Assembly: GCA_022432975.1 (NCBI GenBank)
Contig: CM039512.1
Span: 34,841,730-34,905,729, forward strand
DNA: 64,000 bases
Origin: Begonia masoniana
Lineage: Eukaryota > Streptophyta > Magnoliopsida > Cucurbitales > Begoniaceae
Direction: 5' to 3'
In this document: positions 1,690-64,000 of the stretch, in pieces
Numbering within the stretch: the stretch's first letter is position 1
How the letters are laid out: the number at the start of each line of letters is the position of its first letter
Program-made: the position numbers and the translations under genes
The notes under the pieces: model-generated
The model's input: only the letters and a program-made list of their open reading frames with translations
Told to the model about the DNA's origin: nothing
Database searches by the model: none

Positions 1690-1734
1690 GTGGACATGAC
1701 TTTTGGACGGTGCTCGGCTTGCTACGGACGCCAG
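1690..1734 (+). other. Candidate LTR exon 2 (element A, 5' LTR)
   Basis: A 45-nt segment ending CGCCAG|GTAAGT. It matches exon 2 of LTR H (53596-53640), but here it is joined directly to the upstream leader without an intron. In the frame used by exon 3 it reads through without a stop and ends LLRTPG. A 57-codon frame from the ATG at 1566 runs into it in the same phase. Splicing is inferred, not shown. Confidence 0.55.
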
Positions 1735-2295
1735 GTAAGTGGGTGCTAGGTTTTCGGCCCTTAAGGCTCTACATCGTGTCAACGTTAGGCTTTTGTGTTT
1801 CGATGATGATTTTCTGATTGTGGGGTTACTGAGTCGGGTAGTCTAGGATGTTAGCTATTAGTTGTTTGTAAAGTTCATTAAAAGTATTGTATGTCCATGT
1901 ACGTTGTGAATTGTTTGGTGATATGTTTGATGGTATGTTATACGTGAATTCCTCATGCATCATGTTTTCTCAAAAGTCATACGAAATGTCTTCATGCATG
2001 AATTATGTAAAGGAAAAGTAATGATAAGTGTGGGTGGGACTGTATGGCCATAACAACAAAACTATTGTCACTATCCACGCGATGGATCATGAATACGACC
2101 AAAAGGACTATGTACACGCACTTGGTCTACACTCCCTGACAAGATGCCCACCTTAATCCATGTTAACGAAAAAGAAAAAGAATAAGAATAAGTAAATGAA
2201 CATGTTTTATGAAAAGTCATGCATTCATGCATACGTCATCTATAGTGCATTCCCTTGCTAAGCATTAGGCTTAATGTTTATGTTGAATGATGTAG

Positions 2296-2339
2296 GTGAT
2301 AGGTGTGAAGGTGAGAGTTCTCTCGATGGTAAGGAATAG
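2296..2339 (+). other. Candidate LTR terminal exon 3 (element A, 5' LTR)
   Basis: Follows the acceptor-like TGATGTAG. Read in phase with the donor at 1734/1735 it gives GDRCEGESSLDGKE and then TAG. The first 15 nt are followed by GTGAGA, which could also be a second donor. The 3' LTR repeats it at 16490-16533. Confidence 0.5.
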
Positions 2340-3259
2340 GTGGTCGACAGATGGTGCTTGTGGCGACGGGGTGTGTTTTGGCAAGGCTCGGCGACAATGG
2401 TGTGCTCCGAGATGTTTTGGGTAATTAATGTGAATTTGTTTTGATGTTAAAGATGTGAGGGGTTTTAAAGATACGTAGAGAATGTTGATATTTTGGGATT
2501 TGTTTAGTGGATGTAGGTTAGAAGTGTGTCGTTTTGAATGATTTGATAATGTATGTCTTTGGTGATGTTTTAAGGAAATTTCATGTTTATGTTCGATGTT
2601 TGTTTTGAGGATTTGATTGGGTTTTATTTGACGATTTTAGATGATTTACGACTGTATGGATTGGCTCGGTTTTAGAGCGATCCATGCGGTCAGTTTTCGT
2701 GAAATTTGGAAGTGAATAGGCTAAGTTAGAGTTGTGTTGAGTATTGATTAATGTCGGGTGATGTGTGTTGTGGGATGAGTTGTTGTGGAATTGAGTAGTG
2801 CACGTTAAGTAATGGTTGAGGTGTAAATGTAAAATGCAGGGCGTGAGGAAATGAAGGAAGAAAAAAAGAAAGAAATAAGGGAGGAAGAAGTCGCTGCTCT
2901 CTAGAGAAAATCCAGAGAGGGTGGCGACTGATCGCCACAAATTGTTGCGATCAGTCGCCATAGGCAATTTTGCAACAGGCGACTGGTCGTCTGTTGCAAA
3001 TCGCCAAGGGCGATCAGTCGCCACCTTTATTGGCAATTGATCGCCATGGCTTTATGTATTTTATTTGGTTTATATTAATTAGTTAATAGTTTAATTGATT
3101 TAATTGTTTTAAGTTTTAATTGTTTCAGTATTTGCTTCAAACGATTTACTAAATGAACTTCGATTTCAATTGGGATTTAGTCTTAAGTACAGTTGAGTTA
3201 AAAGTTTTAAAAAAAATAAAAAATAAAAAATACTAATGGTACGGTTAAGGGTCGTGACA

Positions 3260-3429
3260 ATTATGGTATCAGAGAGACGGAGTTTTAAAAGCGACTTATG
3301 TGAAGTGCCTGCCAAAAACACACCGCCGCACGAGGACTCTCCATCGACTGTAAGTATTTAAGTTTAAGTTTGATTTATAGATGTTTATATTGTTTTGTCT
3401 TGTGTTTGTATTGTGTCTAGGAACAAGAA
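3260..3429 (+). promoter_or_regulatory. PBS and spliced leader of element A
   Basis: Directly after the 5' LTR, TGGTATCAGAG (3264-3274) matches the 3' end of plant initiator Met-tRNA, the usual primer of these elements. A 71-nt intron-like segment, 3350-3420, starts GTAAGT and ends TTGTGTCTAG, nine bases before the gag-like ATG at 3430. B (11590-11653) and F (42521-42583) have an equivalent 63-64-nt segment at the same place, which supports a real leader intron. Confidence 0.7.
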
Positions 3430-6816: not shown

Positions 6817-6872
6817 TCATCCATCAACTGCATCAGACGGAGGAACGCCGTCCTCACCTGGTTCGATATCAC
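6817..6872 (-). other. Candidate LTR terminal exon 3 (element B, 3' LTR)
   Basis: On the minus strand it follows CTCTTAG. In phase with exon 2 it reads GDIEPGEDGVPPSDAVDG and stops with TGA. The first 15 nt are GTGATATCGAACCAG, followed by GTGAGG. The 5' LTR repeats it at 12758-12813. Confidence 0.5.
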
Positions 6873-7483
6873 CTAAGAGGTTACCTACACCATACAGACA
6901 CATATGAGATATTGAAATCTCAGTAAGCTACGTAAATGCAAATGCATGCGTGCGTATGCCATTCAGAAATCATGCTCAGATTCAGATTACAGATACAGAA
7001 TTACAGATTACAGATTCATTACGTCACAGACAGACAGAATTGTCACCGAAACCTCGACCCACTAACCCAAGGGGGCCCGTCCGGCGGTTGGACTACCCCG
7101 TGGGGTTAGAGAGGGGGGGTACACGCTTGCAACACGCACAGCCGTGCCTGAGCCCCATCTCGCATGACCAGAAACAGACAGATTACGTTTATTCATTCAG
7201 ATTTCGTTACAGATTTCATTTCAGATATACGTTCCTTTTCTTAAAAAACACGTGCAGAAATTCCTTTTCATGACTTTCGAAAACCGTGATGCATGAACAG
7301 TTCATATCAGCGGAAAGTAAACAAACAACGTGCATACATTCATGGCAGTAAAGCAGAACCTATAAACAACTAACCTAACTACCCAACCAGAGTAACATAA
7401 AACAAACAGTTCCTCGAGTATTCCCGAGACGACGACGAAGTATGGTGCAGACCTTTGGGTCAAAGTAAGTCACGAAAACTTAC

Positions 7484-7528
7484 CTGGAGCGCACTGAATG
7501 GCTAGCTTCGTCCACGGGAGTCGCGTGT
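7484..7528 (-). other. Candidate LTR exon 2 (element B, 3' LTR)
   Basis: A 45-nt segment between an acceptor-like TTTTCCTCAG and a donor GCTCCAG|GTAAGT. Open in the exon 3 frame, with PWTKLAIQCAPG at its end. It aligns in position and length with 22577-22621 in LTR C. Confidence 0.5.
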
Positions 7529-11740: not shown

Positions 11741-14414
11741 TGTAACACCCCTAATACTGTACCCTTATTTTACCCGTATAAATTTTTCATTTTCATTTTT
11801 GTACTTATTTCTTTCCTCTACTTTAATTAAAACCTTATGCGGAATTTAAACTATGGTTGAAATCGGAACTGAATCGGAATTAAAACTGAACCTTAAATGC
11901 ATTTAAAACAAATCTTTATTAAAACTTAAAAGAAAACCTTTAAAAGAAAACTTTAAATTAAATTAAACAAGTGGGAGGGCAGAATTGGAACTCTGTCCTC
12001 AAAATGAAACAGGCGACCGATCTCTGCACTGCAGCAGAGATCGATCGCTGCCATGCATTACAGCAGGGGCGATCGATCTCTGCTGCAGAGCAGAGATCGA
12101 TCGCTGCTAGCTGTGCAGCAATCCGATCGCTGCAAGCATGCAGCGATCCCTTCTCCCTTTCAGACTTCAAACCTCTAACACTTCGCATTTCACAAGCAGC
12201 GACCGATCTCTGCATTGCTGCAGAGATCGATCGCCGCACACTTTCAGTGCAACGATCAGTGAAAACTTCAGCGACCACCTCCTACTTCAATCGCCTTCAC
12301 TTTTCTTTACACTGCTCTCTGGAATTCCAGAGAGCAAACACTTAACAATACTCTCTGGAATTCCAATTCCAGAGAGCGATTCATGCTACTGGAAACTCTC
12401 TGGAACCTGATTCCAGAGAGCAAACATTACTTAATTTAACACCAATTTCTTCCAATAACATCGACCAACTTTACAGCGGACTTTGCGAAATCCGACTGCG
12501 TGGATGCATCTAAACATCGAGCATAACCGTATCAACCTAAAACCAATCAAAACATTTCCATAACATTCATTAAACAGTTTAAACCAAAACGTTTTACATA
12601 CAATTATCAAAACGTTATCTAATCCCTATCCAGATTCAACAACCTAAATATTCTATACAATTATCAACTCAAAACATCCCAAAATAACCCCAGAGTCCAG
12701 ACATACATCCCCACGGGTCAGAAAGCGCCTCGACTACATAGCGCACTCCCACGGCCGTCATCCATCAACTGCATCAGACGGAGGAACGCCGTCCTCACCT
12801 GGTTCGATATCACCTAAGAGGTTACCTACACCATACAGACACATATGAGATATTGAAATCTCAGTAAGCTACGTAAATGCAGATGCATGCGTGCGTATGC
12901 CATTCAGAAATCATGCTCAGATTCAGATTACAGATACAGAATTACAGATTATAGATTCATTACGTCACAGACAGACAGAATTGTCACCGAAACCTCGACC
13001 CACTAACCCAAGGGGGCCCGTCCGGCGGTTGGACTACCTCGTGGGGTTAGAGAGGGGGGTACATGCTTGCAACACGCACAGCCGTGCCTGAGCCCCATCT
13101 CGCATGACCAGAAACAGACAGATTACGTTTATTCATTCAGATTTCGTTACAGATTTCATTTCAGATATACGTTCCTTTTCTTAAAAAACACGTGCAGAAA
13201 TTCCTTTTCATGACTTTCGAAAACCGTGATGCATGAACAGTTCATATCAGCGGAAAGTAAACAAACAACGTGCATACATTCATGGCAGTAAAGCAGAACC
13301 TATAAACAACTAACCTAACTACCCAACCAGAGTAACATAAAACAAACAGTTCCTCGAGTATTCCCGAGACGACGACGAAGTATGGTGCAGACCTTTGGGT
13401 CAAAGTAAGTCACGAAAACTTACCTGGAGCGCACTGAATGGCTAGCTTCGTCCACAGGAGTCGCGTGTCTGAGGAAAACACGATATTTACCATTAAAACT
13501 AATTTAAACAATTAACGTCCAAATCTAAAAACTTAACTAAAGAATTTCTCCTAAATTCTTTATTTAGCCAATCAAAGCGTTTATAACGTTAATTAACGTT
13601 CGATAATTCGAAATCCCAATTAACGAGTTTTTCTCAAAAACTCGGAAAATAAACCAATTTTTAACTTTTTCGCAAATTGATTTTTCTTCGTCCAATAACG
13701 TCAAATACGTTCAATACATACTTAATCAAGGCCAACCTATTAATTACGAACCCTAATTCGTATTTTCGTCGAAACCCTAATTGAAACCCTAACACTAATC
13801 GGACCGAAAACTCGAAATAAACGTTCAGAGACTGTAGGTACATACAGAGGGTAGCGAGAGGAGAAGAAAGCGTGAAGAAATCGGGACGAACGAGGGACGG
13901 AGGTCGGATGATGAACGAACGCCGGCGGCCTAAGGAGAGGAGTGCTCTCTGTTTCGTGCGCAGGGAGAGGAGAAGAAGAAGTGAGGAGAGAGAGGGAATT
14001 TGTGATATTTAATAAAATTGATTTGTAAATTACCAAAACGCCCTTCTTTGATTTCTATATAGATTTCGTTCTTCGGTTCGTTAATCGTCCAACTATTCGG
14101 ATTCTCGAAAGTTCCATATTTTGCCAACAACTTCTATTCATTGCCAGGGATTTATTAAAACTGTCCGTTCGCAATTTGGACCTCGTTCGCTATTTTTACG
14201 AGAACGTCTTTTACATTACGAAAAGCGTATTTACTCGGAATATAGTGTTTGATCTCCGAAAATTTCCGTAAATTCCTTAAAATTCTTATTATTCGTTAGA
14301 ATCGTAATGACGCTTTCCTTTTGTGAAACGGACCTGATTTGACATATTTACCAAAAATGCCACTAATAATATAATAATAATATAATCAAAGGTCCGTACA
14401 AACCGGATATTACA
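11741..14414 (-). repeat. 5' LTR of element B
   Basis: A near-identical partner of 5738-8467. In LTR sense it starts TGTAATATCCGG (at 14414) and ends GGGGTGTTACA. It lacks the 50-nt and 12-nt pieces present in the palindrome block of the 3' LTR and has one 7-nt insertion near 13893 in the leader. Exon 3 of the shared LTR layout is 12813-12758. This is the copy that would act as promoter for B transcripts. Confidence 0.94.
12758..12813 (-). other. Candidate LTR terminal exon 3 (element B, 5' LTR)
   Basis: Same frame and sequence as in the other B LTR: it opens with GTGATATCGAACCAG, reads GDIEPGEDG..., and ends in TGA. Confidence 0.5.
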
Positions 14415-15333: not shown

Positions 15334-17404
15334 TGTAACACTCGGGTTTTTCGGGTTTCCGCTCCAAGGGTATTTTCGTAAATAAGTAAATTAGGTCCGT
15401 TTTGTGAGCGGGAGGTTTTATTAAGGCCCTAGGAATTTATATGGATTTTTAGAAGAATAAGTAAATTTTTAGAATCCAAATCGATAGCGTAACGCAGAAT
15501 TACGGTTTTCCCGCCTATAGTGTTTTAAGTCGTAAAAATAGTAAATTAGGTTCGTTTTACAAACGGAGAGTTTCGTTAGAACCCTAGGATTAAACTGAAA
15601 TATTGGGAGGTTTAAAGAAATTTTTGGAAAGCCAAATTGAGTGACGAAATAGAGAATTGAAAAGGGAGATTCATGGAGGGGCAAACTTGTAATTAGTTAA
15701 GTCAAATTTTTATAATTTACAAATACCCCTCCCCCTTCATTTCCTTCTCCAGATCGTGGATGCTTCCCCCTTTTCTCCCTTGGCGCCATTCTTCTCCTCC
15801 TACGCCGATTCTTCAAGCGCCGATCGACACTCCCTCTTCCAACATTTCTCCTTCGATTTTTCTTCCCCAAGTCGATACTCTAGGTGGACACGACTTTTGG
15901 ACGGTGCTCGGCTTGCTACGGACGCCAGGTAAGTGGGTGCTAGGTTTCCGGCCTTTAAGGCCCTACATCGTGTCAACGTTAGGCTTTTGTGTTTTGATGA
16001 TGATTTTCTGATTGTGGGGTTACTGAGTCGGGTAGTCTAGGATGTTAGCTATTAGTTGTTTGTAAAGTTCGTTAAAAGTATTGTATGTCCATGTACGTTG
16101 TGAATTGTTTGGTGATATGTTTGATGGTATGTTATACGTGAATTCCTCATGCATCATGTTTTCTCAAAAGTCATACGAAATGTCTTCATGCATGAATTAT
16201 GTAAAGGAAAAGTAATGATAAGTGTAGGTGGGACTGTATGGCCATAACAACAAAACTATTGTCACTATCCACGCGATGGATCATGAATACGGCCGAAAGG
16301 ACTATGTACACGCACTTGGTCTACACTCCCTGACAAGATGCCCACCTTAATCCATGTTAACGAAAAAGAAAAATAATAAGAATAAGTAAATGAACATGTT
16401 TTATGAAAAGTCATGCATTCATGCATACGTCATCTATAGTGCATTCCCTTGCTAAACATTAGGCTTAATGTTTATGTTGAATGATGTAGGTGACAGGTGT
16501 GAAGGTGAGAGTTCTCTCGATGGCAAGGAATAGGTGGTCGACGGATGGTGCTCGTGGCGACGGGGTGTGTTTAGGCAAGGCTCGGTGACAGTGGTGTGCT
16601 CCGAGATGTTTTGGGTAATTAATGTGAATTTGTTTTGATGTTAAAGATGTGAGGGGTTTTAAAGATACGTAGAGAATGTTGATATTTTGGGATTTGTTTA
16701 GTGGATGTAGGTTAGAAGTGTGTCGTTTTGAATGATTTGATAATGTATGTCTTTGGTGATGTTTTAAGGAAATTTCATGTTTATGTTCGATGTTTGTTTT
16801 GAGGATTTGATTGGGTTTTATTTGACGATTTTAGATGATTTATGACTGTATGGATTGGCTCGGTTTTAGAGCGATCCATGCGGTCAGTTTTCGTGAAATT
16901 TGGAAGTGTATAGGCTAAGTTAGAGTTGTGTTGAGTATTGATTAATGTCGGGTGATGTGTGTTGTGGGATGAGTTGTTGTGGAATTGAGTAGTGCACGTT
17001 AAGTAATGGTTGAGGTGTAAATGAGAAATGCAGGGCGTGAGGAAATGAAGGAAGAAAAGAAGAAAGAAATAAGGGAGGAAGAAGTCGCCGCTCTCTGGAG
17101 AAAATCCAGAGAGGGTGGCGACTGATCGCCACAATATGTGGCGATCAGTCGCCACAGGCGATTTTGCAACAGGCGACTGGTCGCCTGTTGCAAATCGCCG
17201 TGGCTTTATGTATTTTATTTGGTTTATATTAATTATTTAATAATTTAATTGATTTAATTGTTTTAAGTTTTAATTGTTTCAGTATTTGCTTCAAACGATT
17301 TACAAAACGAACTTCGATTTCAATTGGGATTTAGTCTTAAGTACAGTTGAGTTAAAAGTTTTAAAAAATAAAAAATACTAAGGGTACGGTTAAGGGTCGT
17401 GACA
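15334..17404 (+). repeat. 3' LTR of element A
   Basis: Partner of 1140-3259: starts TGTAACACTCGGG and ends GTCGTGACA, followed by the TSD AACTG. Substitutions are scattered, for example in the U3 near 15500, and it lacks about 40 bases of the inverted-repeat block near 17190. Candidate exon 2 is 15884-15928, with the donor at 15928/15929. The long reverse frames through it are shared only because the LTRs are copies. Confidence 0.95.
16490..16533 (+). other. Candidate LTR terminal exon 3 (element A, 3' LTR)
   Basis: Follows GATGTAG and opens GTGACAGGTGTGAAG. Reads GDRCEGESSLDGKE and stops with TAG. It differs from the 5' copy by silent changes (GAT to GAC and GGT to GGC). Confidence 0.5.
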
Positions 17405-19279: not shown

Positions 19280-19329
19280 TCCTCCTTCTTACGACCTGTC
19301 ACTTTCCGATTTGCTCGCGCGGACGTACC

Positions 19330-20379: not shown

Positions 20380-20384
20380 AAGAC

Positions 20385-22576: not shown

Positions 22577-22621
22577 ACAAACGACGCTCGTGGACGGAGC
22601 TTGAGCTGCTTTGGACACGAG
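22577..22621 (+). other. Candidate LTR exon 2 (LTR C)
   Basis: A 45-nt segment between TTTGCCTCAG and the donor GACACGAG|GTAAGT. In the exon 3 frame it is open and reads ...SWTELELLWTRG. The preceding 380-nt intron-like segment starts at CCCTAG|GTATGA (22196/22197). Confidence 0.55.
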
Positions 22622-23152
22622 GTAAGTTCTCGTGATCTTCTCTGGCCGATTGGCCTACACCGTACTTCGATGTAGCGTCGAGGATCTCAATGGATTAGTT
22701 GTTTTAAATTATTTGTTTTAAATCGCTTTGGGTCGGGTAGATAGGTTTATAGTTGTTTTAGGTTATTCTATTTCGGTCTCGATGGTATGCATGATGGTTG
22801 TTTACTTTATGTTCATATCTGTTCATGCATCACGTGTTTTAAATGTCATGAAAACGAATTTCCGCACGACGTTTTAAAGTAAATGCAAAGAAAGAATGAC
22901 CCTCCGGTATACAGTTTAAATGACCCTTCGGTATATAGTTTAAATGGCCCATCGGAATACAGTTTATAGCAAAGCAAAGCAAAGAAATCGGTATACAGTT
23001 TATAGCAAAGCAAAGCAAAGCAAAGCAAAGTAAAGTAAAGTAAAGTAAAGAAAACAATGCATGATTTATAGATTCATATGCACAGCACGCATTTGCATTT
23101 ACTAGAGCTTACTGAGATTTTTTTTTATCTCATAGATGTCTGTATGGTGTAG

Positions 23153-23199
23153 GTGACGTAAACCCAGGTGAGGACGACGTTCCACCTTCTGATGTTTGA
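23153..23199 (+). other. Candidate LTR terminal exon 3 (LTR C)
   Basis: Follows a TTACTGAG branch-site-like word, a T-run and ATGGTGTAG. It opens GTGACGTAAACCCAG and reads GDVNPGEDDVPPSDV, then TGA. Confidence 0.55.
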
Positions 23200-24672: not shown

Positions 24673-24719
24673 TTAGTCATCCTCATTAACCTTGAGTTCC
24701 TCACCTGAAAACTCGTCAC
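24673..24719 (-). other. Candidate LTR terminal exon 3 (solo LTR D)
   Basis: Minus strand, after TATGATGTAG. Opens GTGACGAGTTTTCAG and reads GDEFSGEELKVNEDD, then TAA. Confidence 0.5.
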
Positions 24720-24825
24720 CTACATCATAAGGTTTAAACTATAAGCCTAATGCTTAGTAGGATGCAAGACTAACATGGATCATGAATGATAGTTTGGGAA
24801 AATCACATGCTCATAAATTCATCGT

Positions 24826-26460
24826 TCATAGTCATTGATCATATTCATCGTTCATAGTCATTGATCATATTCATCGTTCATAGTCATTGATCATATTCAT
24901 CGTTCATAGTCATTGATCATATTCATCGTTCATAGTCATTGATCATATTCATCATCGTTCATAGTCATTGATCATATTCATCGTTCATAGTCATTGATCA
25001 TATTCAACATTCATAGTCATTGATCATATTCATCGTTCATAGTCATTGATCATATTCATCGTTCATAGTCATTGATCATATTCATCGTTCATAGTCATTG
25101 ATCATATTCATCATTCATAGTCATTGATCATATTCATCGTTCATAGTCATTGATCATATTCATCATTCATAGTCATTGATCATATTCATCGTTCATAGTC
25201 ATTGATCATATTCATCGTTCATAGTCATTGATCATATTCATCATTCATAGTCATTGATCATATTCATCGTTCATAGTCATTGATCATATTCATCATCGTT
25301 CATAGTCATTGATCATATTCATCATTCATAGTCATTGATCATATTCATCGTTCATAGTCATTGATCATATTCATCATCGTTCATAGTCATTGATCATATT
25401 CATCATTCATAGTCATTGATCATATTCATCGTTCATAGTCATTGATCATATTCATCATCGTTCATAGTCATTGATCATATTCATCATTCATAGTCATTGA
25501 TCATATTCATCGTTCATAGTCATTGATCATATTCATCATCGTTCATAGTCATTGATCATATTCATCATTCATAGTCATTGATCATATTCATCGTTCATAG
25601 TCATTGATCATATTCATCATTCATAGTCATTGATCATATTCATCGTTCATAGTCATTGATCATATTCATCATTCATAGTCATTGATCATATTCATCATCG
25701 TTCATAGTCATTGATCATATTCATCGTTCATAGTCATTGATCATATTCATCGTTCATAGTCATTGATCATATTCATCATTCATAGTCATTGATCATATTC
25801 ATCGTTCATAGTCATTGATCATATTCATCGTTCATAGTCATTGATCATATTCATCATTCATAGTCATTGATCATATTCATCATTCATAGTCATTGATCAT
25901 ATTCATCATTCATAGTCATTGATCATATTCATCATCGTTCATAGTCATTGATCATATTCATCATCGTTCATAGTCATTGATCATATTCATCGTTCATAGT
26001 CATTGATCATATTCATCGTTCATAGTCATTGATCATATTCATCGTTCATAGTCATTGGTCATATTCATCGTTCATAGTCATTGATCATATTCATCGTTCA
26101 TAGTCATTGGTCATATTCATCGTTCTTAGTCATTGATCATATTCATCATTCATAGTCATTGATCATATTCATCATCGTTCATAGTCATTGATCATATTCA
26201 TCATTCATAGTCATTGATCATATTCATCATTCATAGTCATGATCATATTCATCGTTCATAGTCATTGATCATATTCATCGTTCATAGTCATTGATCATAT
26301 TCATCATCGTTCATAGTCATCGTTCTTAGTCATTGATCATATTCATCATTCATAGTCATTGATCATATTCATCATCGTTCATAGTCATTGATCATATTCA
26401 TCGTTCATAGTCATTGATCATATTCATCGTTCATAGTCATTGATCATATTCATCATTCAT
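24826..26460. repeat. 26/29-nt minisatellite in LTR D
   Basis: About 60 head-to-tail units built on TTCATAGTCATTGATCATA. Three unit types differ before the core: CATCGTT (26 nt), CATCATT (26 nt) and CATCATCGTT (29 nt). A higher-order order of 29+26+26 nt repeats about four times near 25265-25620. It lies between the donor and acceptor of the shared LTR layout. There are no unique spacers. Confidence 0.95.
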
Positions 26461-27507
26461 ATAAGTTGTGTGGATTAAGAGAGGATTTGTGCCGGTAAAG
26501 GGGGTTTGACAGTGAGTTTGATCTTGTTCCCTGCTGCGGGTCGTATTCATATGTCCCTCTTTGGACTGTAACATACGCCGAACCGCCCCCAACCTTCACT
26601 TAGTCCACGTTGCATAAATCCTATATATATACATATATACATACATATTCTGTTCATGGAAAACATGCATTAAAACATTTTCTTATGCTTGAGAATCATT
26701 CATGATGCATGAACATGAGAACTTTTAACCCATCAGACTATGACAAGGATCATACCAGAGCAGACAACTTCACATTCACTAGCAGGTCATCAAATAGTAT
26801 AACTCACAACATTCATCAGTCCTTCAAGTGCAGACAAGCTCATTATCATAAGGTAAACATTAGACATCCAAACAACCTAGTACTCCCACGATATAGGGCT
26901 CTATTAGCCGGAAATCTTAATACATTCACTTACCTGGTCTTCTTAGCACTTGAACTCCTTTCTCTTTAAACTTCTTCACCTAAAACATTTAAATTGCAGT
27001 AGTTAAAACAAATTCCTAATAGTTCTAATCTCAAGTTATCCTAAGATTTAATAGCTAAAGTCATTCCCACTCTCAGATTTCAAATGTCCTTATTATTAGT
27101 CGGCCATTGGAAGATCCAAAACGCCAATGCCGAGTAGAAAACAGGGCTAACAAACTAACAGATAGCTACGTTGTCTATTGCATACCTCGGGCACAGAGTA
27201 GTCGAGTGGTGGCAGAGAAACCGATCGTCGAAGAGAGTATGCTGAAGCAGAGAGCAAGAGCTTGGGAGAGAAGAAATCGCCGAAAAGGAAAGTGTCGGCT
27301 ACAGTGGTTCAAGTGAGGTTTAAAACATTTCCTTTTTCTTTATATATTGGTCATCACCCTCCATTATTACAACTTTGCCACTCAACCTAGTTTAAATCCA
27401 CATAAAATAAATTATTCTTGGTATAAAACTCTAAACCGTTAAGATTGAATATTTATGACCGTTAATACAGTTAGGAAGTCACCTGGCTGAAGTTTTCGGG
27501 TGTTACA

Positions 27508-29669: not shown

Positions 29670-31383
29670 CATCGAGCTCGAGCTCGAGCCCGACGACACC
29701 CGACGCCGAGAGCGAACAGGGGAGGAGGAGGCGACGATTTCCGACGTCCAACCTCGACGTTTACCGGCCAGAAGACGTCGGCGACTCCTGGGCGTGCGGT
29801 TTCCGATCATCCTCGCGCACGAACCGACGGTATGCTCGGTTTTCTCCTCTGTTTTGGTTCGATTTGTGACCATTGGTGGTTTGCTCGAGTGAGCTCCGAT
29901 CTCCGGCCAATTTCGGTCACTTCCGGCGTGGGTTTGCCAACCCTAGGGCCGGCTATTGATGCTTGGCCGCGGAATGCCCAATTTGGGCGAAATTCAGTGA
30001 AACCCGAATTAGGGCTTAGGGTTTTCTTAAATGAAAACTTCGATTTTAGGTTAGTTTATGTTAATTGGATGTTAGGAGGATAGATTGGTGAAGAAATTGA
30101 TGAGTTTTGATGAAAAATAGAAAAAGGGGAATTTTCCGAAAAAGGGCAGTTTCGGGTTTTTGATAAATTGACCTAGCTCTGGTCATTTGTTTTAAAATTC
30201 CTTTTGGCAGATTAAAATAGGTTATTAGAGGAGTACGTGGCCGTTGGAATCGTTCGATTCCAATAACCGACGCAAAAGTTACGCGCGTTTGAGTTTTAGG
30301 TCGGTTTTTGACCAAACCCAAATTAGTGGCCCATTTAATTAGGTTTTAATTGGATTAGGCTAGAAATAATAGTTTAAGATATTTTCACAAAAATGAGAGT
30401 TTAGTTATGCCCGAATGAGAAAATGGAAGTTTTAGGAAAGAATTTCCTTAATTAGGAGATTAGTTTAAGTTTGAAATTAGTTTAATTAGGATTGATTTTA
30501 ATGTACCTTATTTATGAAATGCTTTAGGTAATCCAAGTTCTTCAAGGACGGTGCTCGGCATAGCCACGGACGCCAGGTAAATGGATGTTAGGCTTCCGGC
30601 CCTTAAGGCCCTACATCGTGTCAACGTTAGGTTTTTCTGCTTTGATGATGATTTTCTGATTGTGGGGATTAATGAGTCGGGTAGCTTAGAATGTTAGTTG
30701 TTTGTGAAGTTCGTTAAGAATAGTATATGTCCATGTACGTAGTGAATTGTTTGATGATATGTTTTGATGATATGTCGTACATAGGTTTCTCATGCATCAT
30801 GTTTTAGAAAAAGTACGAAAATGTTTTAGCATATGATTTCATGATTTAAACGTAGAAACGAAAATGTAAAGATGATATGTGTTCTCACGGGAAGCTGAAT
30901 GAAATGTATGATATCTGAGGGAAGTGGTTCACCCCTCAGGTAAAGATTTATATGTGGAACGTCTAGAGATGGAGAAACTAATCCGCCCTTCATTGGTAGA
31001 GGATTACATGTATGATGAAATGAAACGAAATGATTATGTACAACGAAATGAAACGAAACGATCACGTACGATGATATCTGAAGGAAGTGGTTCACCCTTC
31101 AGGTAAAGATTATATGTGGAACGTCTAGAGATGGAGAAACTAATCCGCCCTCCATTGGTAGAGGATTACATGTATGTATGATAGAAACGAAACGAATATG
31201 AATGATGAAATGAAACGAAACGAATATGAATGACGAAACGAAACGAATGAATGACGAAACGAAACGAAATGAATATGAACGATGAAACTGTAGAAACTGC
31301 ATATGTTAAGTAAAATGTTTTAAAGTCATATAGTGCATTCCCTTACTAAGCATTAGGCTTAATGTATATGTTGCATGATGTAG

Positions 31384-31415
31384 GTGACAGGTGCGAAAGT
31401 GAGAGTTTCCCTTGA
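31384..31415 (+). other. Candidate LTR terminal exon 3 (solo LTR E)
   Basis: Follows GCATGATGTAG. Opens GTGACAGGTGCGAAA, reads GDRCESESFP and stops early. Exon 2 of this copy is 49 nt (E2 has 48), so the frame is broken here. Confidence 0.4.
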
Positions 31416-42670: not shown

Positions 42671-45258
42671 TGTAGCGACCTTTACACTATTCCTAATTTT
42701 TACTCTATAAATTTTTCTTTTTCTTTTATGCCTAATAAACTTTTAAACCATTTGAAAACCTTTTAGGGAAACGTATTTAAAGTAAAGGAAACTTAAGAAA
42801 ACAATTTAAATTAAAACTATTAAACAATTTAAAAAACAATTAAATAAAACTTAAAGTAACAGAACAATCGGTGGAGGGCAAAAGGGATAATTGTCCCACA
42901 AAATACAAGGGCGATCGATCTCCCCAATGCTAGGAAATCGATCGCCAAAATAAAAAACTGAGGGGCGATCGATCGCCCCTCACACTGGCATTCGATCGCC
43001 CCAGCAGATCGATCGCCCCTTTTTGGGCGATCGATTAGCATACTCTCTGGAATTTCCAGAGAGTGGCGATATCGATTGCCGATCGATCGCCACCTTAGGC
43101 GATCGATCGGCAATCCCCATGGAAATCCAAAATTTCCAGGGAGTTCGCCTCCCTCTTCTTCTTTCTTTTCTCCTTCTTCCCAGCTTAATTTCTGTACTAC
43201 ACATACACCCTAAAACTTTTCAACATAAATCATTCATAACTTCACTCATTCCTCCCATTCGTAAATCACCAAATAAACAACCCAAAACATATCCTAGAGC
43301 GTGTTTAAAAACATAATAAACTTTCGTAAAAATGAACTGTGTGGATCCATTTAAAACCTAAACAATTTCTCCTGTTTAAAAGAAAATTCCAAGCAGTTCC
43401 CTGAAATCCGAATAAAAGCCTTAACAAAACATTTTATAAATTAAATTTACCAAAACATCAACTATCAGCTATCCAAATTTTCAAACACCCTAAAATGTTC
43501 TACCTATACAATCTCATCCACTATCGCATTCCCAAAATACTTACAAACATCTCCACGGGTCAAAAGCGCACCGACTGCACCAGCACACTCCCACGGGCCA
43601 TTTTTCTTCAACTGTTCATTCCTCGGGTGGAGGGATCTCGTCCTCACCTGTATCAAGATCACCTACACCATACAGATAACTATGAGCTAAAGGTTCAACA
43701 AGTTTCGTAAATGCAAATCCATGCAGTGCATATGAAGTTCAAAAATCATGCAGAATACATAACATAATAGATCGTGGCAGGCAGATTGTCACCGAGATCT
43801 CAGCCCGCTAGATGGAGAGGTCACGTCCGGCGGTTGGACAACCGTTTCCACATAGCGGGGGGGAGACATGCTTACATCCGTAACAGCCACGCCTGGACCC
43901 CACCTCTCATGACCAGATAACAGATTACGTACATTAGTTTAATTAGATGTGGTATCGTGACAAGCTCATCTCAACCTTCACGATAGATCAATAGCCCCCT
44001 TTCGGGCCACATCAGTTTTCCTGAAAATGTAGTGCGGAAATTCATTTTCTATGCTCGTTCGAAAATCGTGATGCATGAACAATTCAATATATAAAGTAAA
44101 CAACCAACATGTGTACCATCAAGACGATAAAAACATAACCTCAAAAGGCAACCAATCCTATCTACCCAACCAAAGCATTTAAACAAACAAATCACCAATG
44201 TTCCTCGACAAGAATTTGACGTACGGTGTAGGCCAATCGGCCATAGTAAGTCACGAGAACTTACCTCGCGTCCGTTGCAAATTCTAGCTCCGTCCACGAG
44301 CGTTGTTCACCTAAGGCAAATTCACAACAATTTGTCATTAAAGCATGTTTAAACCATTAAACATCCAAACCAAAAAAACCTTAACTAAAGAAATCTCTTA
44401 AAACTCTAATTTAACTCATTGAGGCATTTTATCGAGCAATTTATGCTCGACACCTCAAAACCTCCATTAATGGAGTTTTCCAAAGCTCCAATTTTTCTAA
44501 AACCCTAACATTCCTCAATAAACCAATTAACTTCGTCCAATAACACCCAATACGTCCATTGTACTCACAAACACAGTAGGTCTATCGATTTCAAACTCAT
44601 ATTTGTAACAAAAACCCTAAACGAATCCTAATCGTTTAAACTCTAGAAATCGAAGTAAACCTTCCAAAAACCATAGAATCGTACCTAGGGTCGGGATTGG
44701 AGGAGAAAACGTGAAGAGCCAGAGTCGATCGGAAGAGGAATCACCATCGAAAGAGGAGAACGCCGTGAGGAGAGGAAGAAATCGCCGAAGGGGACGGCTT
44801 CTGGTGTTTTCGTGAAAGGCGGAGAGAAAATGAGGGAAGAAGAAAGAGATAGGTGGTTTTTAATAAAAATTAACTTGTCAAAAGACTATTTTGCCCTTCC
44901 TTTGATTTTCTATTTGATTCGTCTCTTGTTTTGTTAATTGTCTAACGAATCGGTTTTTTTCAAATTTCCTTATTTCACCAATAACTCCGACTTATTATCT
45001 GGGCTTAATTAAAACTGTCCGTTTGCAAAACGGACCTCGTTTGCTATTTTTACCACAACGTCCTTTATATTACGAGAAACACAAAACTCGTAAAATTAGC
45101 GTTACTAATCCAAAAATTCCTTAATTTCTCCTAAAATTCATATTAATCATTAGAACCTTAATACCGCTTTCTGTTAACAAAACGGACTTAATCTGACATA
45201 TTTACAAAAATGCCATTGTATATTGGAATTACAAAATCCCGTAAAATCGGGTGTTACA
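42671..45258 (-). repeat. 5' LTR of element F
   Basis: Partner of 35495-38069 with many substitutions and small indels. In LTR sense the U3 motif near 45040 reads AACGAGGTCCGTTTTGCAAACGGAC. Exon 3 of the shared layout is 43662-43616 (GDLDTGEDEIPPPEE, then TGA). The palindrome block is at 42905-43140. Confidence 0.93.
43616..43662 (-). other. Candidate LTR terminal exon 3 (element F, 5' LTR)
   Basis: Opens GTGATCTTGATACAG after TATGGTGTAG and is followed by GTGAGG. Two residues differ from the 3' LTR copy (S to G and S to P), both toward the sequence seen in K. Confidence 0.48.
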
Positions 45259-48730: not shown

Positions 48731-48777
48731 CTAGTCCTGATCATGCTCTTGTACCTCACCTGCTAATTCTTCGTCAC
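48731..48777 (-). other. Candidate LTR terminal exon 3 (solo LTR G)
   Basis: Opens GTGACGAAGAATTAGCAG (18 nt, then GTGAGG). Reads GDEELAGEVQEHDQD, then TAG. The upstream exon 2 of G has stops in this phase. Confidence 0.45.
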
Positions 48778-48919
48778 CTACATCACCAAACTCAACTATT
48801 AGCCTAACGCTAAGCAAGTAATGCAAATATTAATACAAACACTTCACATCTTAACACATCCAATTTTCTACAATCTCGTTTTATTTCTGTTGTCGTTTCA
48901 TTCTCGGCACATTGTAACA

Positions 48920-49195
48920 TTCTCCTACCCACGTCCCACCCGAGATATCGTGGAGTTTCAACCCTGCACGTCACCCTCCAACCCAAGTTCCACCAGAGAT
49001 TTCGAGGAGTACTGAGCATCATACAACCTCCGGCTCAAGTCCTACCCGGGATATCGCGGAGTTTTAACCCAGTACACGTCACCCTCCAGCCCAAGTCCCA
49101 CCCGGGATATCACGGAGCACTAGGTAGTCCTGCTCATCGAACGACACTACACTCTCCAGCCCAAGTCCCACCTGGGATATCACGGAGTACACAGC
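48920..49195. repeat. Short degenerate tandem repeat in LTR G
   Basis: About four copies of a 70-90-nt unit containing CCAAGTCCCACCCGGGATATC and ACGGAG, in intron 2 of the shared LTR layout. Confidence 0.75.
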
Positions 49196-50273
49196 ATCTG
49201 TTAATTACGTATTTTCATACCATACTACTCATCCAAACCATGGAAATTCATTTTCATCTACTAGTGTACTTTTCAAAAACCATGATGCATGCCAAACTAA
49301 ACACACTGCCAACATACATGATAACCATACAATACATGCATACAAATCACAACCATATATTCCTAATGAACTGTGATGTAGGCCCGAAGGCAACACGCAA
49401 GCATACATTACTTACCTGGCCTCCTTAGCTAACCTCGTACTTGTACGCTATATCAGGAACTCGTCTGAACCTAAAACCATAATGCAATCCATCAGTTTAA
49501 TCCTCCTCATCTAGTACCTAAAGAAAACTAAAAACCACTAAACCCGAATTCTCACCGTTTTTTGCCAAACTTCTTAATCACGTAACTAATCATACACTTA
49601 TCCGTTTTTGATGATTCAAGGCTCTACGGACTCCTTAGGATGTCCACTTGCTAAAAGGTTTGGACAGTTTAACCAAATAATACAATGGGCTCGATCGTTT
49701 TTCACAAAAACCAAACTGCCATGCACACTCAACTTTTCCAGATTTTTGGCCTCTTCCAAAAATCCAACTACTCATCCATACTATCCTCTAATCATCTTTA
49801 AACACCCAATAAGGAAAGATTTCTACAATTCTCCCACCAATTTCGTGCAACCCTAGCCCTCACACAACAACCCTAACTTAAACCCCTCCATAACTCAACC
49901 TAATCCACTCTCAACTCCTTTATCTAGCTAGTAAACGAATAACCCTTGAAAAATTAGAGAGAAACTTACCTAGGATTGAAGAAATCAAAAGAGGAGAATG
50001 AGGGTTCATGTTCTGCAGAGTCACCAACGAAAGGTAGAAGAGAAGAGAAGAGAAGAATGCTTCCTTTTCTTTTTACGCTAAAGCCCATTCCTTCCCCTAT
50101 CTTTTTATTTTATTTAAATTACCATTATGCCCTTGGTTAATTAAATCTTACACTTAATAATTACTTCTACCACATTCCTTTAATCCAATACCTTTTACTT
50201 ACATCAATTCCCATAAATTTGTAATGCACTGTACATTTATAAAAACTAAGCCGATAAATTCTCAGGTGTTACA

Positions 50274-52701: not shown

Positions 52702-54260
52702 TGTAACACCCGATATTTTTTGGCCATGTAACTGCCACTAAATCTATTGGAATGGAAGATATTCTCTATTGATGTAATAAATATTTTTTTGGAATTCGGA
52801 CGCTGAGAATTTTAAGGGTTTAAGAAAAATGGAACGGAAGGAGAAAGTCAAACAGCCCAGAATTTCGGTATTCCGTTTATTAAGGTTAAATTCATAAATA
52901 TAGTAAATTAAGTCCGTTTTGCGAATGAGAAGTTTTGTTAGAACCCTAGGAAATAATTGAAATATTTAGAGGAATAAGAAAATTTCGGAGAATCTAAATC
53001 GATAGGCTAAATAACGAAATAGGTGGAACATTAGGGTAAGGGGCTAAGAGGTAATTTTGAGTTAATGTTATTTTATAAAACCCAAAATTTCCCCCTCCCC
53101 CCTTCTTCATTTATGGTTCTCCTCCAGAGAACATTTCCCCCTCCCCATTTTGGCGATTCCTCCCTCTCTCAACGCCCTCTCCTCACGTGGCCGATTCTCC
53201 TCCAAACTCCGGCAATTTTCTTCCTCCATTTTCTTCCACAATCAAGCCCTAGGTAAGTTTCGTGTAATCTAAATGGTTTAGTTCTGATTTTTAGGGTCGA
53301 AAACGATTAGGGTTTACCGATTTAGGGTTGAGAAACTATAGGTTTATGTTATAAATTGTTAGGTTTTCTGTATTTATGACCTTTGATGATAGATTAAAAG
53401 TTTTCATCGATAGTTAGGTTAAAATCGGTGGTTGAACGATATAAATGCCCTTAATGTTAGCTTAGAGAATTTGTGAGCGCAAAGTGCTCGGTGAAATGCC
53501 TGAATGAGATAATTTGAGATTTTTAGGAGTTTCGTTTAATAATGGAAATTGTTAGTTTAGGATCGGCTCTAATGACGAATTTTGATATGTCTTAGGTGGA
53601 CACGGCTTATGGGAGGTGCTCGACTTGCTAAGGACATCAGGTAAGTTCATACGTATAGGTTGGCCCTTAAGGCCCTACATCACGGGGTACTAGGTTTTTA
53701 CGTTATCGGTTTGTTGACGGGTAGTTAGGTCGTAGATTATGCCCTAAGTAAATGTGTTTGCTTTACGTATTGTATTAATGACCTGTCGTCTATTTGTGCT
53801 TCGAGAATTGTCTTTTCATTACGTTACGTCTATGCACAATGTATGTTCATGCATTACGTTTTTCACTAAATTCATGCAAAACATTTTATGCACGTGATTT
53901 GAAGTAAGAAAGATAAAATATGTAAATGTAAAGTACGGTTAAGTGTGGGACGGGTGCTGGCATATGTTTTGTCCTTCTCTGGGACTTATGTAAAACCGTC
54001 CTCGCTGCGGAAAAACATGTGATTTTATTTCTCCTCAAACATGTATTTTATCCCTCCTTAGGACACGACAAAAGTACTAACCATGTTAACCCACGTCAAG
54101 TACGTAATGTAATGTTTTCCACTCCCTATAAGCCCCACTTATACCACATGTCCACTTGAACATAAATCTAAAGTACTGTTCATGTATTTGAATTGTTCAT
54201 GCATAGCATGTGCATATTTTCGCATTTTATGATCTTACTGAGCTTTAGGCTCATTAGTTG
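52702..54260 (+). mobile_element. LTR H, left part, cut by later insertions
   Basis: Starts TGTAACACCCG after the likely target site CCATG (52697-52701). U3 motif AAATTAAGTCCGTTTTGCGAATG near 52910, leader near 53090-53250, intron 1 at 53253-53595 (AG|GTAAGT ... CTTAG), exon 2 at 53596-53640 with donor CAG|GTAAGT. Intron 2 continues to TTACTGAGCTTTAGGCTC, where insertion I begins at 54261. Whether it is a solo LTR or a full element cannot be seen. It is closest to LTR A. Confidence 0.82.
53596..53640 (+). other. Candidate LTR exon 2 with both introns (LTR H)
   Basis: A 45-nt segment starting GTGGACACGGCTTATGGGAG, clearly homologous to 1690-1734 of element A. Here a 343-nt intron-like segment precedes it (53253-53595). 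It is open and ends LDLLRTSG in the shared frame. Confidence 0.58.
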
Positions 54261-55367: not shown

Positions 55368-56173
55368 CTACACCAAAAAGACACCTATGAGATAAAGATC
55401 TCAATAAATTCTACGTAAATGTCAATACATGATCATGTATGCTCAATGCCAAGAAAACCGTTCATGTTATTTCATATATCGGTACGTGTCAGTTTATGGT
55501 TATCGGAAACGCTCGACAGATGGATAGAGCACATCAAGTAGTTAGAAAGCCCACATCATCTGAAGGGAGGAAAACCCGCTCACCACGGAACGCCAGGTCT
55601 GAACCTCATCCCTGATAACCCCATGCCATGGTTGTTTACTGTGATACTTTACTTGCCTTTACATGCATGTTCTTTTCATGAAACCCATGCGTAAATTCAT
55701 TTTCATGACGTTTTGAAACCATGATGCATGAACAGTTCAATATGCACAATATAACATATATAACGTGAATACCATCAAAACCTCACAAATACAATCAAAA
55801 CATCACAAACACAGACTACAAAGTAACTAACCCTAAACTACCTAACCAAAGCAGTTAAACAGGCAAAGCACCAACATTCACCAACAATCCTCAAGGGACA
55901 AAGCTTGACATATGGTGTAGGTCAATCGGCCATAGTAAGTCACAAGAACTTACCTCAAGTCCTCAGCACACCAAGCACTATCCGTGAGCTTGTTCACCTA
56001 AGACAATTTATAACACACGGCATTAGAACCGAGTTTAAACCAATCCTACTCCATTAATTCCACTTAACTATCCTCCATAATCATAAATGCCTTATTATCA
56101 TTCAACATTCCAATAGCTAACGATTTCTAACTTCCATCGGCAATTTCTAACGAAACCCTATTTGAATAACAAC

Positions 56174-60306: not shown

Positions 60307-60496
60307 CTACATCATACGATAAACACATTAAGCCTAATGCTTAGTAAGGAGGTGCACTAAAACATGAGTATACATAATGCATGGTCTTTCAAAACAAGTT
60401 CGTTTTTCGTTTATTTTTTTTACATAACATATACATATATATCATTAGGCATGAGTAGGCACAGGCACACTCGTCTACCCAGTAGACCAAACACTT

Positions 60497-60640
60497 GCCC
60501 TGAGTTGCCATTTACATATTTTCGTGCCCTGAGTTGCCATTTACATATTTTCGTGCCCTGAGTTGCCATTAACGTATCGTCGTACCCTGAGTTGCCATTA
60601 ACGTATCGTCGTACCCTGAGTTGCCATTAACGTGCCCTGT
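60497..60640. repeat. 29-nt tandem repeat in LTR E2
   Basis: About five units beginning CCCTGAGTTGCCATTTACAT; later units have TAACGTATCGTCGTA instead of TTACATATTTTCGTG. Located in intron 2 of the shared layout. Confidence 0.9.
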
Positions 60641-61888
60641 GCCCTACTCATCCTTCATCATTACTTAACATTACTTGAAAACGTGCATGCAAGAACATTT
60701 CATTAAATCTTAAATGAGAAAACATGATGCATGAAAAAGTGCTCCAAACAATCATCAATCATTCCTTAACATACATAAACGAACCTATCCGATCGAAAAT
60801 AGGAAGCACCCTAGGCTACTCGACTCCATAGAGCCCCAAAATCGTGAAAACATCATTAAGACATTAATTCCTAACATCGATATAATGTAAGGCTTTAAGA
60901 GCCAGAAACCTAACACCACTTACCTGGAGTCCTAGCTATGCCGAGCACCGTCCTTTGAGAACTTGGGTTACCTAAAGCATTTTCATAACACATTATTAGT
61001 ATCGATCCTATGTTACAAAAATCAAGACTAAACGAAACCCCGAGCTAGGACAATTTTTCCTAAAACTCTTATTCACTTCATTCGGGCATTTCGTCGAGCA
61101 CCATGCGCTCAATAATTCAAAAACTCTATTAATGAAGATTTACAACCTTCCACAACCAAAAATCAACTCTAACCTTCACCCAAACACCATTAATCCACTC
61201 AATCTTCCTAAATAACAACGAAGGTAACATCGATGGACAACAATCTAGTAATCCTATCGATTTCTAACGAAATCCGAAAATTCCTCACAAAACCCTAAAT
61301 CAAAACCAACCCTAAAATATCAACTAAACTATGCCAAAGCGTAGAACGTACCTAAAGCGTTGATTTGGAGAAGAAAATCGAAGAGAAAACGGGACGTTAG
61401 ATGGGTGATGATGAAACGCCGTGAAAGGGAGGAAGAATTCGTCAAAAAGGGGGGCAAAGTTCACGATCTGGAAAATGAATGGAGGGGGGGGGGGTGTTTT
61501 TGCTTTTATTTAAATTTTGATTTTCTAAATTACTATTTTGCCCTTAGTTCAATTTCCTTACTCCATTCACAATTCGTATACCGTTTTGGATTCTCCAAAA
61601 CTCCCTTATCCCTCCAAATATTCCAACTTATTCTTAGGGTTCTAACAAAACTCTCCGTTTACAAATCGGACCTAATTTACTATTTTTACACATTAAATCG
61701 CTATAGGGTTAAAAACGAAACTTGGCTCTATACTATACCTTTGAGTTTTCTAAAATTTACTTAATCTTCTAAAAATCCCCTTAAATTACTAGAATCATAA
61801 TAACACTTCTTACTCACTAACGGACCTAAATTTCTTATTTACGAAAATACCCTTGGAGCGAAAACCCGAAAAAAACTCGGGTGTTACA

Positions 61889-62320: not shown

Positions 62321-64000
62321 TGTAATGACCCTTACACGTACCGTAGATTTTCCGTATAAATTTTTCATTCTATACGTACAAACTTTAAATCTGACATTCG
62401 AGCGGAAATAAAACTTTTAAAATCGGAATTGAAATTTTTAACGGCGTTTGAAAACTACTTTGAAAACTATCTAAAATAAACTTAAAACAATTAATTAAAT
62501 ATTAAAAGAAAACATTTAAATTAAAGTTAATTTTTTTTTATTATTATGTCCTGCCAAAACGGCAGAACCAGTGGCGATTGCTCATGGCGAGCAAACGCCT
62601 TAGGCGATCACACCATCGCCTAGCGATCGCCAGGCAAAGAGGGGCGATTGATCGCCCCAAGTGGCAATCAATCGCCATGCTCTCTGGAATTTTCCAGAGA
62701 GCACAGCTCCCTCCCTCCCTTCTTTCTTTCTTTCTTCGTTTCCTCATACCCTGCATTTCACACTCACAATACACAACTCACCACACAACACACACACACC
62801 TTTCAACATTCTCATTTCCTTCATCACACACCATTACATTTCACAAAACATACTTCTACTCAATAACACTATCACACCCATACATCACACATACTATCGC
62901 TCACCTATTTCCCGACTCAAATATAACCAATTTCATAAAAACGAACCGCGTGATTCCGTTTAAAAGTTTAACATATCCTCCTATTTTTGAAATTCAGTAA
63001 AACATTATAAAATACATTCAATTTCCCAAAAAAAATACTTTCTATTAACTATTCAGATCCCAACATCCTATAATGTTCTAACAATTTCTATCCAAAATAA
63101 TCCAAATACCTATGTACGTCCCCACGGGTCAAAATCACTCTCCGACTGCCAGCGCACTCCCACGGGCCATCTTTCTTCAACGTGCTCATACATCAGGCGG
63201 AGGGACGTCTTCCTCACCTGTCTCAAAGTCGCCTACACCATAGAATTAAACACGTGAGCTAGGGGCTCAGTAAATCTAAGTGAATGCACGTGAATGCTAT
63301 ACTATGCATGTACAGTTCGCAATTCATTTCATTTCATTTCTTTTATCTCTGGGTCACCGGGGCTTCACTCTCGCTAGATAGGAGCGGCACATCCGTCGAT
63401 TGGATAGCCCCTCGGATCTAACCGGGGGAAAAGCATGCTTCATCCGACAGCCATGCCTGAACCACCGCCACCGACTTGACTATCTTTGCATTCATTTACT
63501 TTTCGTCAACTTTTTCATGAAAACATACTTTGAAATTCATTTTTTTGCATGCGTATGTATAAAACAATGCATGGACGTGCTCAATACGATAAAGAAACAA
63601 TGAAAATAAGCATCAGAGACCAACAACGCTAAATGTTCTACAGTTTAAAGTAGTCTAGCTACCCGTCCTAATCACCCGAAACACACAAATATCACCAATA
63701 TCCTCGATCGACTCAATTCGTACGGTGTAGGCCTAGATGGCCAAACAAGTCACAGAGACTTACCTCGCGTCCGTTGCACACCGAGCTCCATCCACGAGTG
63801 TGGTTCACCTAGGGCAAAGCACAACATTTGTCATTTAAATCGATTCTAAACTATCGAGTTTAGAAAATTACAAACTCCTAGCTAAAGAAAATCTCCTAAA
63901 CTCTATTCTAGCTCAAAACATAAAACAATTTCGAAAAATTATAACTTCCTCTACAATTGTCGAAACTGCTTGATTCCAAAGGCCACGGCTTTCTTAAAGT
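62321..64000 (-). mobile_element. LTR K, cut by window edge
   Basis: Starts TGTAATGACCC, like the 3' end of other LTRs on this strand. Contains GATC palindromes and a CTCTGGAATTTTCCAGAGAG palindrome (62570-62705), AATCACGCGGTTCG near 62948, exon 3 at 63232-63186, a GATGCATG-like intron block, donor CGCGAG|GTAAGT near 63766, and exon 2 (45 nt, open) near 63810. The rest lies outside the window. Confidence 0.85.
63186..63232 (-). other. Candidate LTR terminal exon 3 (LTR K)
   Basis: Opens GCGACTTTGAGACAG after TATGGTGTAG; reads GDFETGEEDVPPPDV, then TGA. In phase with exon 2, which reads SWMELGVQRTRG. Confidence 0.55.

Follow-up and report, generated by a model that had tools for sequence, protein, structure and literature searches.

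Nested Ty3 retrotransposons in the window

The window, which is the whole 64,000-nt stretch of Begonia masoniana contig CM039512.1 analysed here, is plant-type DNA with nested Ty3 retrotransposons. Self-comparison and reading of the sequence gave 14 LTR copies from 11 insertions, namely A1/A2, B1/B2, C, D, E, F1/F2, G, H, I, E2 and J, which are all read in LTR orientation (our I, H and J are D, J and K of the original prediction). Element B is nested in element A. C, E, E2 and I resemble solo LTRs, with 5-bp target duplications identified by eye (GGCTT, CAACC, GATAC and AGTAA). Pfam searches with pieces of the elements gave gag and Integrase_H2C2 above their cut-offs in element B, RVT_1 and RNase H in element F, and an rve match below its cut-off; a chromodomain match (PF00385) in one element, neither B nor F, reached E 8e-4 and 19.7 bits against a cut-off of 25.1. 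Directly after the LTRs of A, B and F lies TGGTATCAGAG, which we take to be a primer binding site (PBS) of the tRNA-Met type. The LTRs are assigned to Tekay/Del-like Ty3 retrotransposons. Tekay/Del chromoviruses, for example Retrosat2, are likewise described with long LTRs and similar ends, TGTCACACCC in Retrosat2 versus mostly TGTAACACCC here (PMC3485330, PMC6317226, in part). Retrosat2 also has an extra ORF0 upstream of gag-pol, and the word intron does not occur in the main text of its description (PMC3485330, in part).

No relatives were found in a collection of viral contigs, and a collection of genome contigs gave one match, a 3.2-kb contig carrying an integrase. This contig (L001) is filed under Robertmurraya kyonggiensis, and its plant-like Ty3 integrase (2799-3164, 58% identity) is probably contamination. 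A protein search gave three gag matches, two filed under bacteria and one from Ipomoea nil.

Tandem units of ~447 bp containing 5S rRNA sequence occur at 17738-20496, where minus-strand 5S units are followed by plus-strand units, and at 56156-56940, where the block interrupts intron 1 of LTR G. Several units also hold a PBS-like TGGTATCAGAG, and the units resemble Cassandra elements. All eight Rfam matches in the window are 5S rRNA and lie outside the leader features described below. An array of largely perfect 20-bp repeats of the TTAGGTGTCGACCCATTAGA type extends over 46775-48240, downstream of LTR H exon 3.

Splice-site signals in the LTRs

The original prediction had reported a splice donor, an acceptor and a short frame reading GDxxxGE in 13 LTR copies from 10 insertions. 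All of these are present, and an 11th insertion, LTR D, retains the donor side. Its coordinates are correct, and so are the junctions 1734^2296, 22621^23153 and 53252^53596, the last of which is intron 1 of LTR D. The features of the putative leader are as follows (slash, splice site; P1, H1 and H2, RNA helices described below).

1690..1734, plus strand: LTR A1 exon 2, 45 nt, ending CAG/GTAAGT
1735..2295, plus strand: LTR A1 intron 2, 561 nt
1756..1768, plus strand: A1 hairpin H1, GGCC-CTTAA-GGCT, 21 nt after the donor
1768..1777, plus strand: A1 helix P1, 5' arm
2259..2273, plus strand: A1 hairpin H2, TAAGC-ATTAG-GCTTA, over the branch-site-like CTAAG
2287..2296, plus strand: A1 helix P1, 3' arm, containing the 3' splice site ATGATGTAG/G
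2295..2339, plus strand: A1 exon-3 frame, GDRCEGESSLDGKE and stop
2307..2317, plus strand: A1 second donor-like sequence, GAAG/GTGAGAG, within GDxxxGE
3350..3420, plus strand: element A candidate short intron, ACT/GTAAGT ... TCTAG/G, after the PBS (3264-3274) and before the presumed gag start
6817..6873, minus strand: B1 exon-3 frame, GDIEPGEDGVPPSDAVDG and stop
6885..7528, minus strand: LTR B1, exon 2 7484-7528; intron 2 6885-7483 to the P1-paired AG; intron 1 7529-7905
12826..13468, minus strand: LTR B2 exon 2 and intron 2; intron 1 13469-13845; frame 12758-12814
15884..15928, plus strand: LTR A2 exon 2; intron 2 then runs to 16489
16489..16533, plus strand: A2 exon-3 frame
22577..23152, plus strand: solo LTR C, exon 2 22577-22621; intron 2 22622-23152; intron 1 22197-22576
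23152..23199, plus strand: C exon-3 frame, GDVNPGEDDVPPSDV and stop
24673..24720, minus strand: I exon-3 frame, GDEFSGEELKVNEDD and stop
24720..26979, minus strand: solo LTR I, exon 2 26934-26979; intron 2 of 2214 nt; intron 1 26980-27185
30528..31383, plus strand: solo LTR E exon 2 and intron 2; intron 1 29830-30527; frame 31383-31415, shifted, 10 codons
36468..37115, minus strand: LTR F1 exon 2 and intron 2; intron 1 37116-37495; frame 36421-36468
43663..44310, minus strand: LTR F2 exon 2 and intron 2; intron 1 44311-44684; frame 43616-43663
48778..49470, minus strand: LTR H exon 2 and intron 2; intron 1 49471-49969; frame 48731-48778
53253..53640, plus strand: LTR D, intron 1 followed by exon 2; another insertion truncates the LTR at 54262, shortly before the acceptor; H2 remnant 54231-54263
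55368..55997, minus strand: LTR G exon 2 and intron 2; frame 55312-55368
60307..60971, minus strand: solo LTR E2 exon 2 and intron 2; intron 1 60972-61351; frame 60260-60307
63233..63808, minus strand: LTR J exon 2 and intron 2; frame 63186-63233; exon 1 beyond the window

The pattern SAGGTAAGT occurs 14 times in the window versus 0.63 expected (22-fold), and 13 of these are the leader donor; the donor of LTR E is a variant, GTAAAT. TAGGTGAY occurs 16 times versus 3.97 expected (4-fold), with 12 occurrences at the leader acceptor. Profiles built with the tested family held out re-found all 14 donor sides, with E from 1.4e-4 down to 2e-17, and all 13 acceptor sides, with E from 2.3e-6 down to 2e-15. 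The best other match of the acceptor model was the remnant in LTR D at 54231-54259 (E 2e-4 to 7e-4), and that of the donor model had E 4.6. The remaining matches up to E 10 had E of at least 2.1, and some of them were the complementary P1 arm on the opposite strand. Full models ranked the same copies first, as expected for sequences that were used to build them. Hence, the LTRs have a conserved donor and a conserved acceptor in fixed order, as a spliced LTR should.

Exons and introns of the putative leader

The conserved unit looks like a leader of three exons, with exon 1 after a TATA-like box, followed by exon 2 and exon 3. The original prediction listed one junction of intron 1 and did not describe this intron as a general feature, nor did it describe the RNA helices of intron 2. 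In nine copies the TATA-like box lies 148-215 nt before the exon 1 end, and exon 1, judged by the position of this box, is ~120-185 nt long. Exon 1 ends with CCTAG/GTA in C, D, F and H, and differs in E, E2, I and B (T/GTATGT in B). Intron 1 has 206-698 nt, and its donor was placed in 10 copies of 8 families; in J it lies beyond the window, and in G, where intron 1 is interrupted, it is unplaced. Exon 2 measures 45 nt in 5 of the 11 families, 44-49 nt in five and 55 nt in H. Intron 2 spans 531-2214 nt when counted to the acceptor of the frame, or 598-599 nt in B when counted to the AG paired by P1, and exon 3 starts with GTGAY, or GCGAC in J. Exon 2 has a T content of 0.19, and the first 45 nt of exon 3 have one of 0.23, versus 0.37 in intron 1 and 0.33 in intron 2.

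Family A has no intron 1. Its exon-1-like sequence abuts the exon-2-like sequence at CTAG^GTGGAC, as is expected of a copied (reverse-transcribed) spliced RNA; the computed gap at intron 1 is split and non-unique, so the exactness of this loss rests on the junction as read by eye.

The interior of intron 2 is variable (0.5-2.2 kb), with tandem repeats in some copies. In LTR I, a tandem array based on 13 bp (24800-26500) fills the interior of intron 2 and brings the intron to 2.2 kb, and the intron ends are still complementary. Downstream of the LTR, elements A, B and F each have a candidate short intron, located after the PBS and ahead of the presumed start of gag; in B it precedes the ORF with the Pfam gag match. 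A conserved internal donor able to feed the acceptor of the 3' LTR was not found: the strong donor pattern occurs once in B and not at all in F, the pol stretch of G or the first part of A. A poly(A)-like motif downstream of exon 3 (TTGTATAGAAC...) was considered as a shared feature and rejected, as it is exact in C only and weak in the others. Another conserved block, which could form a hairpin, surrounds GAGCGATCCACGCGGT at 2640-2700 and 31795-31850; it has 20-22 matches of 23 in A, C, E and E2 and 17 of 23 in B, F and J, counts that carry no shuffle control, and it was not seen in G, H and I.

RNA structure of intron 2

In all 10 families, an arm between +32 and +49 downstream of the donor has complementarity to the acceptor GRTGTAG/G. 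This pairing with the 3' splice site itself (P1) comprises 10-14 bp in 11 of 12 copies. Complementarity between the acceptor and the 5' part of the intron was tested in 12 copies, with B2 left out; in 11 of them it exceeds that of dinucleotide shuffles (p 0.001-0.022), always at the same place. In F1, which has a mutated acceptor, P1 is down to 8 bp (p 0.13). About 23-40 nt upstream of the 3' splice site there is a small co-varying hairpin, H2, of only 4 counted pairs, the last of which is lost in A2 and F2.

Considering P1 and H2 together in 13 copies (12 distinct rows), 95.3% of cells are paired versus 89.3% in shuffles (0 of 500 as high), and sliding the arms out of register leaves 26-53% paired. 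Covariation is 0.321 versus 0.194 in shuffles (0 of 500), and five pairs have changed on both sides (8 of 500 shuffles), including C-G/U-A in P1 and G-C/A-U/U-A in H2. By the number of further pair types, the copies do not exceed the shuffles (350 of 500). These shuffle probabilities overstate the evidence because the families share ancestry; moreover, several tests were chosen after the data were seen, and they concern one window and related families.

RNAalifold recovers all 12 P1 pairs unprompted from the 13 copies, and H2 is missing from this fold. Unconstrained folding of the whole intron in 11 copies (B2 and I left out) placed P1 in the minimum-energy structure of nine, with 7 of 7 core bases in seven copies and 6 of 7 in B1 and F1; the minimum-energy structures of E and H do not contain it. 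A further hairpin, H1, adjoins the 5' arm of P1 on its upstream side. It pairs GGCC with GGCC, GACC with GGTC in B, and GGCT with AGCC in I and E2; its statistic is weaker (23 of 500 shuffles, with arms chosen by eye), and one pair each is lost in G and H. No pairing between the ends of intron 1 was found in any of the 7 families tested. In B, P1 pairs an AG located 12 nt upstream of the AG assigned to the frame by the original prediction, so exon 3 of B may start there.

All copies derive from related elements, and it might be argued that these are simply old LTRs whose sequences were kept by chance without function. This explanation is extremely unlikely and already disfavoured, since both arms co-vary while the loops and the interior of intron 2 diverge, and since held-out sites were re-found at E of 1.4e-4 or lower with the best other match, apart from the D remnant, at E 2.1 or weaker. 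Alternatively, the helices and conserved blocks could be an RNA signal for packaging, dimerisation or replication with no splicing involved. Conserved structure in R/U5-like sequence upstream of the PBS would suit such a signal, as would the further conserved block downstream in A, C, E and E2. However, it predicts neither GTAAGT donors and plant-type acceptors nor the composition contrast between exons and introns and the loss of intron 1 in family A, and we regard it as highly unlikely.

Judged from these comparisons, intron 2 shows constraint at the RNA level. A conserved RNA element had been offered as one of two readings of the LTRs, and it is well supported by the co-varying helix that links the ends of intron 2 and by the donor-like frozen silent sites of exon 3 described next.

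Exon 3 and its reading frame

The frame after the acceptor stops after 10-18 codons in all 13 copies, as had been stated. TGA, TAA and TAG are all used, at codon 15 or 16 in seven of 10 families (A, C, F, H, I, E2 and J); the stop is at codon 19 in B and G and at codon 11 in the shifted frame of E. A small acidic C-terminal peptide made from spliced RNA had been the other, and main, reading of these LTRs. In its full form the LTR is a mini-gene, with exons 1-3 encoding, now or formerly, a small protein with an acidic GDxxxGE...D tail.

Several properties of exon 3 agree with this. Across 45 nt in B, C, F, G and J, the minimum numbers of changes at codon positions 1, 2 and 3 are 8, 5 and 23, a third-position excess with p = 0.0002; the three positions are unequal by the very rate comparison that had been proposed as the check. 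In the same families, pN/pS over the 15 codons is 0.34, versus 1.26 and 1.70 in the other sense frames. Amino-acid similarity is significant by a column-permutation test in all five family sets tried (p 0.0005-0.004), and the frames of A and H differ by 3-nt indels. In addition, A, B, C, D, I and E2 have a joined frame of exons 1-3 that runs without a stop over 52-82 codons up to GD.

Other observations stand against a mini-gene. The third-position excess weakens as deeper families are added, with p 0.022 in seven families, 0.14 in C, J, F, I and E2, and 0.37 in nine families over codons 1-7, and it is absent in A, E and E2. In a series of 21 phase tests exon 3 has p 0.0004, to be weighed against control blocks that are also nominally periodic (start of intron 2, p 0.014; sequence after the stop, p 0.027). 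The antisense frame across exon 3 is open as well, and its pN/pS of 0.41, weaker than that of the sense frame, leaves the coding strand uncertain. In B, a 7-nt gap removes the stop of C. Exon 2 has a pN/pS of 0.82 (A, B, C, D and J). The joined frame is closed through exon 2 in 4 of 10 families, E, F, G and H, the same four that had been given as out of frame; the shift in F is present in both of its LTRs and hence predates that insertion. As was also noted before, no ATG is common to all copies, and within the open stretch only A and J have one, so that a start codon and a single frame through all exons are missing. Exon 1 was rejected as coding sequence, since stop-free frames are expected from its C/T-rich composition, and a protein search with the 70-aa joined product of A1 found no relative. 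Thus, the peptide reading has support in exon 3 only and fails for exon 2, the start and the joined frame, and the mini-gene is unlikely, though worth taking seriously.

Exon 3 also carries a second pattern. The third x codon of GDxxxGE ends in A in 10 of 10 families, being four-fold degenerate in six, and the E is GAG in 10 of 10. GTGAG is kept in nine of the 10 families (GCGAG in G), even with the glycine lost (AGT in E and F1). The silent sites of GDxxxGE are frozen to donor-like MAG/GTGAG. Exon 3 could hence be a microexon of 15-18 nt (15 nt in nine families, 18 in H) or an alternative donor, spliced to an acceptor before gag, with GDxxxGE as a by-product of TGTAG/GTGAY followed by MAG/GTGAG. 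Yet the sequence past +15 of exon 3 is conserved and T-poor to about +110, it is codon-like in five families, and the downstream acceptor is a candidate only. Further donor-like sites also speak for a longer exon: exact GTATGT or GTAAGT is found 107 to 121 nt after the exon 3 acceptor in B, C, E, F2 and I (e.g. 23268 and 31497), A, H, E2 and J have close variants, and T content there rises from 0.25 to 0.40. Possibly this site is the true end of exon 3, and the reading as a microexon or alternative donor seems rather unlikely.

A pure leader does not account for the codon-like evolution of exon 3. An upstream ORF may end in exon 3, or exon 3 may be the tail of another spliced product or formerly coding, and it is possible that the GDxxxGE frame is translated as a peptide.

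A proposed spliced leader with a structured intron

These data are best explained by a retrotransposon leader that is spliced and whose intron 2 is structured and probably regulated, and we give this explanation a probability of roughly 0.6. According to our model, much of each LTR would lie downstream of the promoter and form a spliced leader, in the order exon 1, intron 1, exon 2, intron 2 and exon 3, and the RNA would really be spliced at the leader sites. P1 would bring together the ends of the long, length-variable intron 2, tethering the 5' splice site to the branch site and the acceptor across an interior of any length, with the small hairpin H2 sitting over the likely branch site next to P1. 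By covering the AG, P1 may set how often intron 2 is removed, and because of this covering it could also delay the second splicing step. A retrotransposon needs both unspliced and spliced RNA. Control of intron 2 might balance spliced mRNA against the unspliced RNA required for reverse transcription. More speculatively, a donor-like site of exon 3, at +15 or at +107-130, could be spliced to the acceptor that directly precedes gag, and the mRNA would thereby lose the PBS.

A broader version of the spliced-leader model takes the LTRs of a whole lineage of plant Ty3 elements to carry an RNA switch, in which P1 would choose between an unspliced RNA that keeps the PBS and can be copied and a spliced, translated mRNA without it, a short acidic upstream ORF or tail being under selection within this switch as well. 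So far we hold this version to be doubtful.

Relation to known elements and meaning

BARE1 is an element of the Copia superfamily. It is likewise a plant LTR retrotransposon that separates translated, partly spliced RNA from packaged RNA, by one 104-nt intron that alters gag-pol reading, in contrast to the several LTR introns proposed here, and the consulted part of its description, unlike our account of P1, includes no conserved intron helix (PMC3735527). According to the part of a 2025 review consulted, plant LTR retrotransposons are generally without introns, Ogre and EVADE excepted (PMC12786077). These two likewise have spliced introns (PMC12786077, PMC6317226); that of Ogre lies between coding regions (PMC6317226), whereas ours would lie in LTRs, and that of EVADE serves a subgenomic RNA (PMC12786077). 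In these partial texts neither intron is described as located in an LTR. For maize CRM4TR, a Ty3 centromeric case, LTR-UTR transcripts are reported from tandem arrays, three cDNAs being spliced in the UTR and one of them also within the LTR, and no conserved architecture or RNA structure is described in the portion consulted (PMC3648361).

Zipper stems are known in yeast introns, as in RPL7B (PMC12311795) and RPS17B (PMC2536676), both sources again being used in part; as excerpted, they tether intron ends across an interior of any length, as we propose for P1 (PMC12311795). As in such stems, pairing between the 5' and 3' parts of the intron is kept here through compensatory change, with a strength that is overstated because the families are related. 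Unlike the yeast stems as described there, P1 includes the 3' splice site in its 3' arm, has the branch hairpin within its loop and belongs to the LTR of a plant retrotransposon. Our search of the open-licence literature gave no description of a conserved multi-exon leader in an LTR, nor of an LTR intron with an end-to-end helix.

If the LTRs are spliced, a leader with introns would make up much of the length of LTRs of this kind, and it would become testable in a plant Ty3 class how a single RNA can be used for translation as well as replication. Moreover, a helix-tethered intron of 0.5-2.2 kb would suit the study of how RNA structure sets splice-site pairing in plants.
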